A stretch of DNA of 41,780 nucleotides from a virus: positions 1 through 41,780 of the IMG/VR virus record IMGVR_UViG_3300046466_000027, one strand, 5' to 3'. Both the position numbers and the translations under genes were made by a program. Positions within the stretch are counted from its first letter, which is position 1. Each line of letters opens with the position of its first letter. Below are positions 28,196-34,912 of the stretch, in pieces. The notes under the pieces are model-generated. The model did not search any database. It was not told where the DNA came from and saw nothing but the letters and a program-made list of their open reading frames with translations.

Positions 28196-30640
28196 TTAGG
28201 CGAAAAAATACTTACATTGATGTAGTTGGTCTAACTCCAAATTTCCGTCTTTTGGTCTATTAGGTAAATTTGATATAGCTTCCTCTGGTATATTTTGTGA
28301 TACTTGTTGTTTAAACTTAGAAAGTAAATCTTCAGAAAATATACCTACAAAGGCTTCTCTTATACTTTTGTTTAACACATCAACATCACACGCATGAGTA
28401 GCAAAACTATCATGGACATTACAAAAATTATTAATACCATATTCTTTTGCAATGTTTACAGTCCTAATCATACAAGCACTATCTAGGCTGTGAACATAGT
28501 TAGCCGCCGCCGCATTACGTTGTTTCATTTTATCAGTTTCATTTGTAGGTGTTTTTATTTGAGGTGCAAACACTTCACCCATTAAATGAGATTGTACTCT
28601 TTTACTTTTCATTTCTGGGTAATATTGAAATACAGGAAAACCAACAGGTGTAACCCAATGTAAAGGCACTCCTTCTTTAGCTACAACTTTAGCAATATCT
28701 TGTAAATATTGCATACCTTGTTTTGCTGATTTTAAATTTTCACCTATACTTTGCCAAATTATTTTAGATAAATAAATAGCAGGTTTAAACATATCATTAA
28801 AAGGGTGTGTTTCTCCTTTGTCTTTTCTTTTAGTTAAATCCTCAACTACAAAATCAGTACAAGCATATCTGGTACTTCCATAAGTAAGTGTCATTACAGG
28901 TCTTTTACAAGTAGAACGCTTTACTCCATAGTCTAACCATTTTACAGCTAACTCATCACCATTTTTAGCATTATCTTTTGTGTTAACAATAACTTGGTCT
29001 TTGACAAGACTATAAATATCTTGAGGTTCTTTACTTGGAACACAATTAACCAATTTACCAGAAATTTCATCTTTTAATAATAAAGAATAAATCTGTAATC
29101 CATTACAAGAACCATCTACATTGACAGGTATATGAGAAACAAATCCATCACCTTCTTTTGTATATCTGTTCCATTCATCACAAAATGCTAAAAATTGAAA
29201 AGCATTGTCTGCATCTTCCCATTGTCTATTTCCAATAGGGTCTTCAGCACAATCTTTAATCCAATTTTGATTATCAATAGTCCATTTCTCTCTATCTTCT
29301 AATGACACTTTATCATTACCCCACATATTAGCTCCATGTACAGCTAACCAGAAAACACCTCTATTCTCTTTAGTAATAGGTTTCCCTTGACTAAAATTTA
29401 ACAAGGCTTTTGCACCATTAATAGATTGATAATTAAGAAAAGGCGGAACACAATAAGCTCTTCCTCTAAAGTCTAATTGTAAAGGAAAAAACATAGTAGC
29501 ATAGTCTTTAAATTGCTCTGCTAAATTTATTATTTTAGCATAAAGTATTCTTTTAGATGCCATTCTGTTATTCTCTGTGTGGACAATAACTGTTTCTTTT
29601 TTCCATTTTAAACGAGATTCAGGATTAGTTTCAATATCGTGGGGTTTGTTTGGAATTGGGAGATTTTCAATAGGTGGCATACCTCCAATAGAAAGTGATT
29701 TATCCCAAGCATGTTGCATTACTTTAAGTATAAATTTATTGATTTTGTATGATGTGCTTTGCATTAAATTTATAGCTTTTGTTACCTCTGGCATAGAAAA
29801 TGCCTCAAGCTCATTGATAAACTTTTTACCTTTTTGCTTTACAAGGTCTAATTCTGGCATTTCTGAAGTCCAGTAGCCATGACCTTGAACTTTGCCATCT
29901 TCAACTGATTTTGGAGCAAGTACCATAGGTAAATACTCTGGGTTAAGTAGCTCATTGAAGTTATTTCTATTAGAAATCCACTCTCTAGTCCCATCTGCTT
30001 GTTTTATAACTTTTACTGTTTTATGTTTATGCTGTTCAGTAGTAATTTCAATTAATCTAGTTTTCTCTATCATTAAATCAATTAAAAGCATTCCTACATG
30101 CAATCTATCTGTTGTTGACCATTCTTGCCAAATAGCAACATTATCTCTTTTAGATTGTTCTCTGAATTTTCTTCTTTTATAATTGTAATTAAAAGACCTT
30201 TTATCTAAATCTTTTTTTACAGTTTGATATAAAGTAGGATTTAATGCCTCAAAATTTTTAAGGCTTATTTCAGTTTCAATTCTACCTCCTAATTTAATTG
30301 CAGTAGCAGTCAAATTTTTAGTAGTAGTGATTGTATTAATTACATGCTTTAAAGTTATTAATGCTGTAGTTAATGGATTTACTAATCTTATATATTTTAA
30401 TGATATGGGAGTTTTGGAATGGACGTTAGCTTCTGTTTGTTCTATCCACTCTGCAATGGCTATTGCTAAAGGACGTACTGATGTGGCTACAATGACTTTT
30501 CCGTAAGATGTGACGCTTTCTTCTTCACGTTCAATGTGTGAGAGCCTCCTCTTATTTGTTTTATTTTTTCCAAGCTGTGCTGATAACTTTTCCATTTCTT
30601 GTTGGTTTTTAAAGTTAGGCATTATTTCAAGTATTCTCAT
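28196..30640 (-). CDS. T7-like single-subunit RNA polymerase
   Basis: An 814-aa RNA polymerase that transcribes middle and late genes from the phage promoters. Motif A: VDGSCNGLQ; motif B: CKRPVMTLTYGSTRYAC; motif C: NVHDSFATHAC; the chain ends in FFA, like the functionally important T7 C-terminus. I prefer the ATG at 30640 (MRILEIMPNF), which has a strong AGGAG site 7 nt upstream. A longer frame from 30697 has no such site. Confidence 0.95.
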   Translation of the reverse strand: MRILEIMPNFKNQQEMEKLSAQLGKNKTNKRRLSHIEREEESVTSYGKVIVATSVRPLAIAIAEWIEQTEANVHSKTPISLKYIRLVNPLTTALITLKHVINTITTTKNLTATAIKLGGRIETEISLKNFEALNPTLYQTVKKDLDKRSFNYNYKRRKFREQSKRDNVAIWQEWSTTDRLHVGMLLIDLMIEKTRLIEITTEQHKHKTVKVIKQADGTREWISNRNNFNELLNPEYLPMVLAPKSVEDGKVQGHGYWTSEMPELDLVKQKGKKFINELEAFSMPEVTKAINLMQSTSYKINKFILKVMQHAWDKSLSIGGMPPIENLPIPNKPHDIETNPESRLKWKKETVIVHTENNRMASKRILYAKIINLAEQFKDYATMFFPLQLDFRGRAYCVPPFLNYQSINGAKALLNFSQGKPITKENRGVFWLAVHGANMWGNDKVSLEDREKWTIDNQNWIKDCAEDPIGNRQWEDADNAFQFLAFCDEWNRYTKEGDGFVSHIPVNVDGSCNGLQIYSLLLKDEISGKLVNCVPSKEPQDIYSLVKDQVIVNTKDNAKNGDELAVKWLDYGVKRSTCKRPVMTLTYGSTRYACTDFVVEDLTKRKDKGETHPFNDMFKPAIYLSKIIWQSIGENLKSAKQGMQYLQDIAKVVAKEGVPLHWVTPVGFPVFQYYPEMKSKRVQSHLMGEVFAPQIKTPTNETDKMKQRNAAAANYVHSLDSACMIRTVNIAKEYGINNFCNVHDSFATHACDVDVLNKSIREAFVGIFSEDLLSKFKQQVSQNIPEEAISNLPNRPKDGNLELDQLHQCKYFFA

Positions 30641-30765
30641 GTGTTCTCCTGTTTGTTGATTGATGCAACTACGGAATGACCTACAAATTAGGTTCACTCC
30701 TTTGCTATTTTATTTAGGTTGTGATAGAGAATAGTTGTTGAGTTTACTTGTAAAAACAATCTTGG

Positions 30766-30892: not shown

Positions 30893-31765
30893 TTAAGCGG
30901 ATTTATTTATTCCGTTTAAAACATTTACTGCTCCCATTAAATTATTAGGTATTAAATGAGAGTATCTTTTTATCATCTTCCACGACTTATGACCCAACAT
31001 TTGACCAATCATGTGTAATTCTACCTTACCAGATTGTGCTAAACGTGTTGCACAAGTGTGTCTCAAGCAATGAATGACAAACTCTTTGTCGTCTTCAAGG
31101 TTCATTGCTTTTCTTAAACGTCTCCAAGTATTCTCACAAGTCCAATATTTTAGATGTGAAAACACAAGGTCGTTTCTTTCCGCTTTTATTAACAATTTAA
31201 GAACAATAGACTTAGCACGTTCTGTTAGCGGTATACCTCTAGGTTCACCATTTTTAGTGACACTAGCAGGTAAATTAACAACATAGTTTCCATTGTTGTT
31301 ATGCACCATTAACTTCTTAATAGATAACGCTTCGCCTAGTCTCATACCTGTATCAATTAAGAACAAATAAAATTCCAAATAGTCAACCATATTCCACTCG
31401 GTTAACAATCTGATAATTTCTTGCTCTTCCATTGGTTCAAGGTATCGTTCTCTACCATTGTTTTCTGTCTGCCAATCAATATGAGGCATTCTATCAAGAT
31501 GATAAATAGACTGTCTCTGATTAGCAAACCTTAACATCTTACTAATTGATGAAAGATAACGATTGATAGTAGCAGGAGCAAAACCCCTGTCTTCTAACGT
31601 GTCCACAATGTTTTCAATGTGGGTATCGTTAATTTCAGTTACAAGCATTCCCTTACCAAGCATTTCAATAACTTTCTCGGCTCGTTTAGATTGCAACTTT
31701 TCCCAACCTTTAAGTGTTAATTTGCGGTGTATCTCCGTTAACAACTTTACATTTCGTTGTTGCAT
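30893..31765 (-). CDS. int: Tyrosine site-specific integrase
   Basis: A 290-aa phage integrase. Residues 1-100 form the SAM-like core-binding domain. The catalytic domain shows Arg in DTGMRLGEAL, HCLRHTCATRL (His-x-x-Arg), GHKSW (second His/Trp position) and Tyr in IKRYSHL. The ATG has a strong GGAGG site. It indicates a temperate option for this T7-like phage. It lies between the regulator gene and the attP-like site. Confidence 0.95.
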   Translation of the reverse strand: MQQRNVKLLTEIHRKLTLKGWEKLQSKRAEKVIEMLGKGMLVTEINDTHIENIVDTLEDRGFAPATINRYLSSISKMLRFANQRQSIYHLDRMPHIDWQTENNGRERYLEPMEEQEIIRLLTEWNMVDYLEFYLFLIDTGMRLGEALSIKKLMVHNNNGNYVVNLPASVTKNGEPRGIPLTERAKSIVLKLLIKAERNDLVFSHLKYWTCENTWRRLRKAMNLEDDKEFVIHCLRHTCATRLAQSGKVELHMIGQMLGHKSWKMIKRYSHLIPNNLMGAVNVLNGINKSA

Positions 31766-31786: not shown

Positions 31787-32119
31787 TTATTTAACCCAAC
31801 TTAAAAGAGTGCTGTGAACTCTTTTACCTTTTGATGTAAGACGCACTAACTTTCTTCGTCTTTCCATTGGGTCTTCAAAAGTTTCTAATAGACCTATACC
31901 AATCTTTTTGTGCCTGTTTATATCTCCTAATTTATAAACATTTCGTGACACTGAAGATTGAGCTATGTCTAAATCTTCGCTTATTGTTTGCATGGCAACG
32001 CCGTCTCGTCCACCATAAACGCCCACATAAAAAAACACAGCTACAGCCTGTGCTTCAATTTGTGTATCAAACTTTCGCATCTCTTCTATTATTTTTAATA
32101 GATTTAATCCGCTACTCAT
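31787..32119 (-). CDS. Winged-helix (MarR-like) DNA-binding protein
   Basis: A 110-aa protein starting at the ATG at 32119 (MSSGLNLLKIIEEMRKF), preceded by AAGGGAAAG. The middle has a helix-turn-helix (MQTISEDLDIAQSSVSRNVY), and the C-terminal wing reads RRRKLVRLTSKGKR, a MarR-type ending. Encoded directly before integrase, it may control integration or lysogeny. This role is inferred from position. Confidence 0.7.
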   Translation of the reverse strand: MSSGLNLLKIIEEMRKFDTQIEAQAVAVFFYVGVYGGRDGVAMQTISEDLDIAQSSVSRNVYKLGDINRHKKIGIGLLETFEDPMERRRKLVRLTSKGKRVHSTLLSWVK

Positions 32120-32149
32120 TTTCTTTCCCTTTCTACTTTCTATAAACAA

Positions 32150-32513: not shown

Positions 32514-32577
32514 GCAAAATACGCCGTCTAGTCCTTAGACAGCGTTTCGGCTACAATCAAAGCCTCGTCAGTTTTGC
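32514..32577 (-). ncRNA. Hammerhead ribozyme, type I (copy C)
   Basis: Minus-strand RNA in order: stem I GCAAAA; core CUGACGA; stem II GGCU/AGCC with an 8-nt loop; core GAAA; stem III CGCUGUCUA/UAGACGGCG (9 bp, loop AGGAC); UA cleavage site; stem I UUUUGC. All core bases are canonical, with predicted cleavage after A (between 32520 and 32519). The UGA in the core CUGACGA is the stop codon of the upstream ORF at 32568. It would cut the message just after that ORF. Confidence 0.92.
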
Positions 32578-32762
32578 TCTTCGGTTGATTTTTGTATCTC
32601 GTTTGTAAGTGCAATTATTGGGGGTGTCTTTGCCTCAATAATATTCTCTATTAACTGCACTGCCTTAAAGCCGACCCTATGTGGTGTCAAAGCATCATAC
32701 TCTTCTAGTGACCTTGTTTTTACCAGAAATGATAGTACCTGTTTTTTGATTTTCCAATTCAC
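32568..32762 (-). CDS. Small early protein ending in hammerhead C
   Basis: A frame of up to 64 aa from a GTG at 32762 (NWKIKKQVLSFLVKTRSLEE, ending KSTEEQN). It overlaps the preceding gene by 68 nt, so a shorter start such as the TTG at 32690 (about 40 aa) is possible. The stop TGA is part of the hammerhead core. Function not recognised. Confidence 0.45.
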   Translation of the reverse strand: MNWKIKKQVLSFLVKTRSLEEYDALTPHRVGFKAVQLIENIIEAKTPPIIALTNEIQKSTEEQN

Positions 32763-32880
32763 CGTCTAGTCCTTTTGTTGATTTCTTTTTGTTGCCAAAA
32801 ATAGCGTCCCACCCCTCCTTGTATTTCTTGGAGGGGATATGAACGCCGTCTCGTATTTTATAAGATTTAAAACCAGACAA
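32695..32880 (-). CDS. Small early basic protein
   Basis: A 61-aa basic ORF (SGFKSYKIRDGVHIPSKKYK, EGWDAIFGNKKKSTKG). The start is a TTG at 32880 with GGAG 7 nt upstream, directly after the previous gene's stop. It contains the string AGGACTAGACGG shared with hammerhead C and the terminator at 33093. Function not recognised. Confidence 0.55.
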   Translation of the reverse strand: MSGFKSYKIRDGVHIPSKKYKEGWDAIFGNKKKSTKGLDGELENQKTGTIISGKNKVTRRV

Positions 32881-33060
32881 TTAATACTCCATCATGTCCA
32901 TTAAATCGTCTAAGTCTGCTCCATCATCACAAAAGTCTGACAGTTCTAAATCTAAAGACTGTGCAACTTCTTTGTGTGTCATTGCGGTAGGTTCAGACCA
33001 TTTAAGGTCTTTATTAGTCATCATTTTGTCTTCGTCACTCATGTATATTTTTTTTGTCAT
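32881..33060 (-). CDS. Small acidic early protein
   Basis: A 59-aa acidic ORF (MTKKIYMSDEDKMMTNKDLK, ending DLDDLMDMMEY). The ATG has GGAG 7 nt upstream, and the leader holds the ATCAACAATCAAC motif. Strong acidity and small size recall phage proteins that bind and inhibit host enzymes by DNA mimicry; this is only a compositional analogy. Confidence 0.6.
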   Translation of the reverse strand: MTKKIYMSDEDKMMTNKDLKWSEPTAMTHKEVAQSLDLELSDFCDDGADLDDLMDMMEY

Positions 33061-33092
33061 GTTTCACTCCGTTGATTGTTGATAAATAAAAA

Positions 33093-33122
33093 ACGCCGTC
33101 TAGTCCTAAGACCAAACGGCGT
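33093..33122 (-). terminator. Strong intrinsic terminator
   Basis: Minus-strand RNA forms a 13-bp uninterrupted stem (ACGCCGUUUGGUC / GACUAGACGGCGU, including G-U pairs) with loop UUAG, followed by UUUUUAUUUAU. It lies 10 bp after the stop of the gene at 33133 and before the acidic gene at 33060. It would reduce expression of genes downstream in the early region. The 3' arm is nearly identical to the 3' arm of stem III in hammerhead C. Confidence 0.85.
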
Positions 33123-33132
33123 AATATGTTTA

Positions 33133-33330
33133 TTAGTATTTACCAAAGTATTGCTTCTGCAACTGTTCCAACTTTTGTTCTGGTGTTAAAACTTCCATTA
33201 CAGAAAATGCTTCCGTAAATATATGTTCTTGGCTATCAAGCAAAGCCCTGCCCTGCTTGGTGTAGCCAATAGCATTTATCTTAGCTTCCTCTAGTTCGCC
33301 CTCTATGATTTGACAACCAAGTCCAACCAT
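33133..33330 (-). CDS. Small early protein
   Basis: A 65-aa ORF (MVGLGCQIIEGELEEAKINA, ending LEQLQKQYFGKY), overlapping the preceding stop as TGATG. It seems to have a beta-rich N-terminus and a helical C-terminus. It is followed by the strong terminator. Function not recognised. Confidence 0.6.
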   Translation of the reverse strand: MVGLGCQIIEGELEEAKINAIGYTKQGRALLDSQEHIFTEAFSVMEVLTPEQKLEQLQKQYFGKY

Positions 33331-33491
33331 CAAGAAATTTTAACTTTTGGAAACTTTATGACCTGCCCCATGATAGGGACAGGTTTTGTTTGTTTGTTAG
33401 CTCTCAAAGAGTTTCTAACAATGCTAATTACTTTTGTTGCTTCATAGCATTTCATAAGCTCTTGAGGGCTAAATAATGAAAGTTGTTTCAA
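33330..33491 (-). CDS. Small early protein (TTG start)
   Basis: A 53-aa ORF (KQLSLFSPQELMKCYEATKV, ending IKFPKVKIS). The TTG at 33491 comes directly after the previous stop, with GAAGG 9 nt upstream. It is coupled to the next gene by a TGATG overlap. Function not recognised. Confidence 0.55.
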   Translation of the reverse strand: MKQLSLFSPQELMKCYEATKVISIVRNSLRANKQTKPVPIMGQVIKFPKVKIS

Positions 33492-33653
33492 TTAAACCCA
33501 ACCTTCAGCGATAGCAACGTGAAACAATTTTAGTTTCTCCGTCCCTGTTGCCTTTGCGTATTTGTCAAAGTGCAATTTTTTTGCTGTCTCGTCTTTAAAC
33601 TTTGAGACAGCTTCCGCCCTTTGAATACGCTGTACACATTTTGCAATTTGCAT
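33492..33653 (-). CDS. Small early protein
   Basis: A 53-aa basic helical ORF (MQIAKCVQRIQRAEAVSKFK, ending FHVAIAEGWV). The ATG has AAAGGAG 8 nt upstream, and the leader holds the ATCAACAATCAAC motif. It is the first gene on the RNA released by hammerhead A. The competing frame from 33757 starts inside the ribozyme and has no ribosome site. Function not recognised. Confidence 0.65.
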   Translation of the reverse strand: MQIAKCVQRIQRAEAVSKFKDETAKKLHFDKYAKATGTEKLKLFHVAIAEGWV

Positions 33654-33745
33654 TTGTGGTACTCCTTTGTTGATTGTTGATTAGTTGCATCTTGTAGCCG
33701 TTCCGATAGTCCGCCACTTATCACAAGCCTTCTTTTTTTAGCATT

Positions 33746-33832
33746 GCAACAGACCAAGCCAGATATACAAGTTTAGGCTACGCCCTAAACCTGCCGACTT
33801 GGTTTCGCATATAAAATGCTCGTCAGTGTTGC
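33746..33832 (-). ncRNA. Hammerhead ribozyme, type I (copy A)
   Basis: Minus-strand RNA in order: stem I GCAACA; core CUGACGA; stem II GCAU/AUGC with loop UUUAU; core GAAA; stem III CCAAG...CUUGG, extended by an inner hairpin UUUAGG GCGUAG CCUAAA; UC cleavage site; stem I UGUUGC. Every core position is canonical, with cleavage predicted after C (between 33752 and 33751). It begins right after the stop of the gene at 33833, so the ribozyme forms the 3' end of that message. Confidence 0.95.
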
Positions 33833-34087
33833 TTATTGTCCAAAATTTTTAACGTCTCTTTGTTTGCAATTTGGAATAATAATAAATTTAATAGGTAAAT
33901 CAGAATTGAAACCTTTTAAACCTATAACCTCCTTGCAGACGTGTTCAGCGTGTCCTCCATAACCATATTGAAATTCAATTTTATGTATTTTTTGTTTTTC
34001 AATATCGTCTATGTTAGCAGAAAAATAAGTATTTCCGTATGTCTTGTCACGCCATTCTTTAATAGTAGCTATATATTTAATTTTCAT
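33833..34087 (-). CDS. Hypothetical early protein
   Basis: An 84-aa protein (KIKYIATIKEWRDKTYGNTY, then HKIEFQYGYGGHAEHVCKEV). Mixed alpha/beta; it may be a compact single domain. Its ATG overlaps the previous stop by one base, and its stop directly abuts hammerhead A. Function not recognised. Confidence 0.7.
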   Translation of the reverse strand: MKIKYIATIKEWRDKTYGNTYFSANIDDIEKQKIHKIEFQYGYGGHAEHVCKEVIGLKGFNSDLPIKFIIIPNCKQRDVKNFGQ

Positions 34088-34371
34088 TACGCTACCGCCT
34101 TTGTTGAGTTTAAGTCTACTAAAATATATTCACCGCTTTTGATTTTGGCTCTTGTATCTTCAACGCCTTCATTTAAAAATTCACGTCTATATTTTGCCGT
34201 TGTCACTGAATAATTCCAGAAAGTCTCGTCAAGAAATATTCTGCCGTCTGCACATATTTTAGCAATGATTGATTTATAAGATTGAAAAAAGCTATTTCCA
34301 AAATCGTCAGAAATAATAAATTGATTTGCAACCTTGTTGCCCTTTGGGCTAGTCATGTTTTTTACTTTCAT
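34087..34371 (-). CDS. Hypothetical early protein
   Basis: A 94-aa protein. I choose the ATG at 34371 (MKVKNMTSPKGNKVANQFII), which has GGAG 8 nt upstream, over the ATG at 34383. The pattern NKVANQFII, FFQSYKSIIAK, FWNYSVTTAKYRREFL resembles a small family found in phages and mobile elements (DUF8033-like, from memory). Function unknown. It is the first gene after hammerhead B. Confidence 0.7.
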   Translation of the reverse strand: MKVKNMTSPKGNKVANQFIISDDFGNSFFQSYKSIIAKICADGRIFLDETFWNYSVTTAKYRREFLNEGVEDTRAKIKSGEYILVDLNSTKAVA

Positions 34372-34383
34372 AGTGTACTCCAT

Positions 34384-34403
34384 GTTGATTGTTGATTGTT
34401 GAT
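34384..34403. repeat. Tandem GTTGATT motif in early leader
   Basis: Three tandem copies of GTTGATT; the minus-strand RNA reads AUCAACAAUCAAC and onwards. The same 13-base motif is found in the leaders at 33071-33083 and 33669-33681, each just upstream of a small gene. A shorter relative is near 28134. It may be a translation enhancer or protein-binding element. Confidence 0.5.
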
Positions 34404-34474
34404 TTGCTAATTAATAAACATCAAGCGATAGCTATTCAAAAACGCCCTTAGTCTCTTGACCGACTTATTAATTA

Positions 34475-34538
34475 GCGATTGTTTCGGACTGGTGTTTCTG
34501 TGTCCTCGTCAGTGCCATATAAAATGACAGACAACCGC
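34475..34538 (-). ncRNA. Hammerhead ribozyme, type III (copy B)
   Basis: Minus-strand RNA in order: stem III GCGGUUG; UC cleavage site; stem I UGUCAU/AUGGCA with loop UUUAU; core CUGACGA; stem II GGAC/GUCC with a 12-nt loop; core GAAA; stem III CAAUCGC. Core bases are all canonical, and the three stems have 6, 4 and 7 pairs. Cleavage is predicted after C, between 34530 and 34529. It differs in strand order and stems from copies A and C, so only the catalytic core is shared. It lies in a non-coding leader. Confidence 0.95.
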
Positions 34539-34542
34539 AGTT

Positions 34543-34713
34543 GGTTCAGCCTACTTTGTATTTCTACAACCGCCTCTGAACCGAGAGGACTTTCCACACG
34601 CTATTAATGACAACTAGCCAAGATAACATTTTTGCAGGGTGTCGGTATCGCAACTCCCACAGGTCAAACTCTACGCTTTCGAGGTCTGAACCTGCAACGC
34701 TCACTGCGTGTGG
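34543..34713 (-). ncRNA. Structured non-coding RNA upstream of hammerhead B
   Basis: No ORF is present, but complementary segments nest. CCACACGC (34706-34713) pairs with GCGUGUGG (34594-34601) and encloses UUGCAGG (34691-34697) paired with CCUGCAA (34632-34638). Further 3', GGUUCAG (34576-34582) pairs with CUGAACC (34543-34549) around a UUGUA GAAA UACAA tetraloop hairpin (34556-34569). A rival hairpin CCUCU/AGAGG (34573-34588) overlaps GGUUCAG, so two folds exclude each other. Class unknown. Confidence 0.65.
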
Positions 34714-34912
34714 CTCATGTTTTTTGTATGTAGAGAAAAAACAGTAAAAAAATAATATAAATTCTTTGTATACTATCCACTTATGGATTTATACTGACAA
34801 AGTTGTCGCACCTGTAAAATAGTTAATAAACCCTTATAAAATAAGAATTATAGGACTTTCAAGGATTTAATGGGAATTTATAGGAGTATAAACTATTGTT
34901 ATGGGTGGATAG
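34714..34912. other. AT-rich non-coding segment with small dyads
   Basis: No gene is seen. Short dyads occur: ATCCA CTTA TGGAT (34775-34788), CTTAT AAA ATAAG (34833-34845) and the 12-bp palindrome ATAGTTAACTAT (34909-34920). Several sequences resemble -10 boxes (TATACT, TATAAT), so host-type early promoters may lie here. None has a convincing -35 partner at proper spacing. Confidence 0.35.

Follow-up and report, generated by a model that had tools for sequence, protein, structure and literature searches.

The early region of a pelagiphage genome carries three hammerhead motifs on the minus strand, sense to the early genes and located at gene borders. Sequence, structure and comparative evidence make it nearly certain that these motifs are hammerheads. 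By analogy, they likely cleave in the cell, and they probably cut the early polycistronic RNA and define the ends of the early mRNAs. The pelagiphage group and the rule by which the two hammerhead types are placed relative to genes appear new. The window, that is, the whole stretch of DNA analyzed, was the IMG/VR virus record IMGVR_UViG_3300046466_000027 (positions 1 to 41,780).

Both strands of the window (41.8 kb) were searched with a hammerhead descriptor, comprising the core CUGANGA, stem II, GAAA, stem III with an A15.1-U16.1 pair, H17 and stem I, in type I or type III order. Three motifs and no others were returned. Chance motifs were rare, with a mean of 0.03 and a maximum of 1 per shuffled window (300 shuffles). 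Along the sense direction the order was type III, type I, type I:

34475–34538, minus strand: hammerhead A, type III; found by descriptor, fold and covariance model R2 (65.1 bits, E roughly 7.4e-15)
33746–33832, minus strand: hammerhead B, type I; found by descriptor, fold and covariance model R1 (57.3 bits, E roughly 3.5e-15)
32514–32577, minus strand: hammerhead C, type I; found by descriptor, fold and covariance model R1 (66.8 bits, E roughly 4.1e-18), with a weak match to Rfam RF03152

The models R1 and R2 were built from relatives alone, without the window sequences, and their E-values are rough because the calibration was short. All three motifs had the core CUGACGA...GAAA...UH with the A15.1-U16.1 pair and three paired stems, and for each of them the hammerhead structure was the minimum-energy fold. 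Hammerhead A had a stem I hairpin of 6 pairs, GGAC/GUCC as stem II and GCGGUUGU/ACAAUCGC as stem III. The stems of hammerhead B were GCAACA/UGUUGC (stem I), GCAU/AUGC (stem II) and a stem III of 10 pairs with a further hairpin on top. Those of hammerhead C were GCAAAA/UUUUGC, GGCU/AGCC and again 10 pairs. The initial annotation had described three minus-strand hammerheads with a full core and three stems, one of type III and two of type I, between 32514 and 34538. Descriptor, folds and covariance models agree with this, and the range corresponds to the outer ends of the motifs. The cuts predicted by the descriptor, at 34530/34529 in hammerhead A, 33752/33751 in hammerhead B and 32520/32519 in hammerhead C, fall exactly where the annotation had put them.

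A covariance-model search had been suggested as a check, and its outcome was split. The Rfam 15 scan of the window gave zero hammerhead matches at Rfam thresholds; the models from relatives recovered all three motifs. At a lax threshold, the sole hammerhead-type Rfam match in the window was RAGATH-1-hammerhead (RF03152) on hammerhead C, with 19.7 bits against a cut-off of 56.3. The homologue of hammerhead C in HTVC304P (L005) reached 32.2 bits (E 0.0097) with the same model, also under the cut-off. RF03152 was the closest Rfam model to hammerhead C, its upstream element being only loosely matched. A match at the Rfam gathering score is not a defining feature of hammerheads, because the Rfam models cover particular subsets. 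In T7, Prochlorococcus phage P-SCSP1a, pelagiphage HTVC011P and a Nitrospina element we found zero hammerheads and zero matches to our own models. For fast hammerhead cleavage at low magnesium, loop-loop contacts are required.

By nucleotide similarity and by the order of its early and replication genes, the window belongs to the HTVC019P-type pelagiphages (Pelagivirus), whose host SAR11 is an abundant bacterium of the ocean. The best match was HTVC131P, with 88% of a 12.7-kb query covered at 87.3% identity. The description of the genome as T7-like and pelagiphage-like in the annotation is supported. Along the sense direction, terminase and lysozyme-like genes are followed by a leader, small early genes, MarR, integrase, RNA polymerase, replication genes and structural genes, the order of MarR, integrase and RNA polymerase being common to the window and its HTVC019P-type relatives. 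The features around the hammerheads were:

34540–34750, minus strand: leader 5′ of hammerhead A, with no obvious gene and several inverted repeats
34087–34371, minus strand: first early gene beyond hammerhead A, of unknown function and assigned to PHROG 21575 (E 2.4e-21)
33833–34087, minus strand: second early gene, PHROG 6246
33093–33122, minus strand: hairpin resembling an intrinsic terminator, with a T run behind it, located between two of the small early genes
32568–32762, minus strand: 64-aa ORF
31787–32149, minus strand: MarR-type transcriptional regulator, 3′ of hammerhead C, PHROG 9665 (E 1.4e-34), annotated as MarR in relatives
30893–31765, minus strand: integrase, PHROG 1 (E 2.6e-47)
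28196–30697, minus strand: phage single-subunit RNA polymerase, by alignment (A1) with annotated relatives

The leader had homologous stretches in relatives by nucleotide similarity, and no Rfam match was found for it. The likely start of the first early gene is the ATG at 34371, behind GGAG; the ORF list has 34383. The UAA stop of the second early gene directly adjoins the 5′ edge of hammerhead B, and the UGA stop of the 64-aa ORF lies inside the CUGACGA core of hammerhead C, in line with the annotation, which had placed the motifs at gene borders and sense to the early genes. The promoter scan gave a site count no higher than in shuffles. The 14-mer AGGACTAGACGGYG occurs exactly three times in the early region (33107–33094, 32773–32760 and 32535–32522; 0.14 expected), once within the terminator-like hairpin and once within stem III of hammerhead C. 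A fourth copy, with 2 mismatches, was found at 32012–31999.

We scanned 16 named related genomes together with 80 IMG/VR loci that encode a related RNA polymerase. In the early sense DNA of the window and relatives (249 kb), all stems were formed in 85 of 117 core matches. The corresponding counts were 3 of 153 in the downstream sense DNA (943 kb), where at least one of the 3 was a weak match within a gene, and 0 of 5 on the antisense strand. Compensatory changes were found among relatives in all three stems. In type I, 10 of 15 pairs had changed on both sides with all cells paired (38 distinct sequences), and in type III 8 of 13 (12 distinct sequences), compared with 76% and 73% paired in shuffles and 22–60% in slid structures; these counts lean towards structure but are partly circular, because the motifs were selected by pairing. 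Two results are free of this circularity. The first is the count of core matches in early versus other DNA, and the second is the exchange of a whole stem I between homologous motifs, GCAAAA/UUUUGC versus GUUGUA/UACAAC.

The stem I exchange also bears on whether the stem III hairpins of type I motifs are transcription terminators, with the likeness to hammerheads being incidental or secondary. Stem III of hammerhead C scored terminator-like, with an ATTTTGC tail, and its 3′ half is identical to the 3′ half of the hairpin at 33122–33093. However, relatives have TACAAC in place of the T run and compensate for it on the other side of stem I, hammerhead B has no T run, and the core letters are invariant. 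The terminator reading has almost no chance of being correct, and we dropped it because the T run was not conserved among relatives.

The number of hammerheads per related genome ranged from 0 to 4, with most relatives having 1–4. The set of three claimed in the annotation thus holds for the window and is not fixed in the group. Arrays could be composed differently, such as III-III-I-I in L022 or I-I-I-I in L098. In almost every HTVC019P-type genome, the motif before MarR was located 1.84–1.97 kb 5′ of the start of RNA polymerase. Motifs were absent from relatives L010, L013 and L016, and a few forms were damaged, with U-U as the basal pair of stem II (L019, L088) or with an insertion (L095). 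The annotation had named broken stems without compensating changes in relatives as evidence against it; compensation was found in all three stems, alongside these few damaged forms. Because some relatives have no motifs and a few have damaged ones, the hammerhead function is not indispensable. The variable copy number, together with the changing genes around the motifs, could also point to selfish or neutral relics carried in a fast-changing region. Against this stand the invariant cores, the compensated stems and the strict strand and placement, kept across RNA polymerase identities down to ~64%, which make relics very improbable. In bacterial genomes, a scan by RNA polymerase alignment found one distant Nitrospina locus only, without hammerheads.

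The U-U opposition occurred at the first stem II pair of a hammerhead C variant (L019 901–961 and L088 8158–8218), and at L090 1288–1348 a covariance-model match had a score equal to that of L088. Possibly this variant is inactive, or it is a core variant that is tolerated.

Placement was assessed by a script on distinct motifs. It took the nearest upstream stop among ORFs with 35 or more codons, and the next start codon that had a ribosome-binding site. The 5′ edge of type I motifs lay between -12 and +20 nt from a stop codon in 52 of 62 cases (12.7% for random early positions). Of 19 type III motifs, 16 had a start codon no more than 30 nt away (14.3% for random early positions), the usual distance before the early-gene start codon being 11–29 nt. 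The types differed from each other by both the stop and the start criterion (Fisher p 9.5e-8 and 4.7e-10), values that, like the binomial ones, overstate independence because the sequences are related, so that the true significance is weaker. In mixed arrays, type III preceded type I in 18 of 18. Hammerhead A was an exception to the usual distance, lying 103 nt 5′ of the first start codon that the script found instead of 11–29 nt. By definition of the types, a type III body remains on the RNA 3′ of the cut and a type I body on the RNA 5′ of it. Placement and definition together imply that the mRNA would retain the ribozyme as its end.

Two type I hammerheads were also found on L099 (70–119 and 633–682), a 57.9-kb contig that apparently comes from a different phage. 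The one checked, at 633–682 (core at 639), adjoins an 82-codon ORF ending at 636 and fits the type I rule.

The clustering of type I 5′ edges at -10 to +19 nt from stop codons, and in the window the stop codons adjoining hammerhead B and inside the core of hammerhead C, would also suit cutting gated by translation. A ribosome ending the upstream gene would cover stem I and the core of a type I motif, which would cut only when translation drops, so that the array would act as a timer or a feedback switch and not as a constitutive processor. The same placement would, however, result from compact gene packing or from 3′-end formation, and we regard gating as unlikely.

We favor the reading that the hammerheads process the early RNA. 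From the motifs, their conservation, covariation and placement, we infer cleavage in the cell, the resulting RNA ends and an effect on stability, as follows. In an HTVC019P-type pelagiphage, three hammerheads would cut the early polycistronic RNA into four pieces. The first piece would be the leader, ahead of the cut at 34530/34529, and the second (34529–33752) the mRNA for two small genes. The third (33751–32520) would be the RNA for about six small genes, with the terminator-like hairpin inside, and the fourth, from 32519, the mRNA for MarR, integrase and RNA polymerase. The type III body would be left as the 5′ end of the following mRNA, and the type I bodies, with their strong terminal hairpin, as the 3′ end of the preceding one. 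At every cut the ends would be defined and structured, with a 5′-OH on one side and a 2′,3′-cyclic phosphate on the other. Such ends should resist exonucleases and decay dependent on the 5′ end.

In T7, RNase III cuts the early transcript between genes that lie around the RNA polymerase gene and upstream of it, resulting in 3′-terminal hairpins. The window resembles T7 in its predicted cuts between early genes and its predicted hairpin 3′ ends. In T7, in contrast, the cuts are made by a host protein and leave 5′-phosphate and 3′-OH ends, and no hammerhead was found in T7. Self-cleaving RNAs might take the place of RNase III in the window, as the annotation had suggested.

The RNA between two cuts would have ligatable 5′-OH and 2′,3′-cyclic phosphate ends, so the ribozymes might yield spliced or circular RNAs through cutting and rejoining, a possibility raised in 2011 (PMC3088659). 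Where type III leads an array and type I ends it, neither ribozyme could reseal the excised RNA, because this RNA would not contain both halves of one cleavage strand. A search for such products in the 2011 study was negative (PMC3088659), and we consider rejoining to be almost certainly not the role of the array.

In 19 of 62 type I motifs (2.5 expected), the 5′ end of the downstream product could pair again with a copy of the stem I strand close by, for example at L009 30574–30660, L015 8787–8860 and L086 1500–1570. If such a product hairpin formed, resealing would be blocked and the next RNA would gain a 5′ hairpin. We left it out of the mechanism for the window, because it is absent there.

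The annotation had presented a set of three hammerheads used in this way in a pelagiphage-like genome as unfamiliar. Among open-licence papers, searches pairing hammerheads with SAR11 or with T7-like phages gave no report of such a set, and none reported hammerheads in pelagiphages; in this phage group the set appears new. As a general claim the novelty was too strong, since hammerhead clusters in prophages and a triple array were published in 2011 (PMC3088659). Perreault et al. described many hammerheads in prophages, with clusters flanking genes or gene blocks, and proposed that these divide long phage transcripts to give shorter mRNAs. Their triple array around ardA in an Agrobacterium tumefaciens prophage, near marR and integrase, cleaves in vitro and in E. 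coli (PMC3088659). Hammerhead arrays dividing phage transcripts were thus already known and shown to be active. The Agrobacterium array is like that of the window in that several hammerheads flank small genes in one transcript beside marR and integrase, but it comes from another phage group and another host. A rule linking hammerhead type to gene starts and ends was not found in the searched text of PMC3088659. In haloviruses HF1 and HF2, a hammerhead variant lies 13 nt before an early-gene start codon, and a mapped transcript 5′ end falls within 3 nt of the cut (PMC3088659). These viruses differ from the window in having a single variant core and in being archaeal. De la Pena et al. (2017) called the role of prokaryotic hammerheads open and noted that they cluster around small ORFs and are linked to phages (PMC6155905).

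Pelagiphages are a globally abundant group with cultured phage-host pairs and published infection RNA-seq. In the RNA-seq of HTVC022P infecting HTCC1062, MarR, integrase and RNA polymerase were among the early genes, and ribozymes were unmentioned (PMC12753301). What hammerheads do is directly testable in this group, because there are exact predicted cuts, with homologous sites at HTVC022P 2353/2354 and at HTVC019P 976/977 and 3002/3003, a prediction of mRNA ends from the placement rule, and relatives with 0–4 copies or with another element in the slot.

This other element is a 70-nt imperfect hairpin, which in at least 14 relatives occupies the type III slot before the first start codon. Its carriers include HTVC131P, HTVC022P, HTVC304P, HTVC201P and Jormungand, and it was located, among others, at:

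L001, 545–615: slot hairpin
L004, 509–578: slot hairpin
L005 and L006, 548–617: slot hairpin
L011, 36276–36346: slot hairpin

The hairpin folded with -25 kcal/mol (z -4.7). It was near-identical among phages whose flanking DNA is ~75–80% alike to the window, and in its length and sequence variants the stem was mostly kept. No Rfam match was found for it. On the RNA polymerase tree, the minimum number of changes was at least 3 for the hairpin label and 5 for the type III label, indicating that hairpin and type III motif were swapped repeatedly, by mutation or leader exchange. The hairpin may serve as a site for RNase III, or it may be a self-cleaving RNA that has not been described before. Gene borders hold hammerheads in the window and, in one slot of relatives, this RNase III-like hairpin; if it is indeed an RNase III site, this would support the processing reading. 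Tentatively, and as a possibility we rate below even, type III would serve mRNA 5′ ends and type I 3′ ends, their bodies capping every early mRNA, with the type III slot interchangeable with the hairpin, whether that is an RNase III site or a self-cleaving RNA of a new kind. In HTVC121P (L008 664–774) there was no strict hammerhead, and the type III model matched with 43 bits, with a long insertion.
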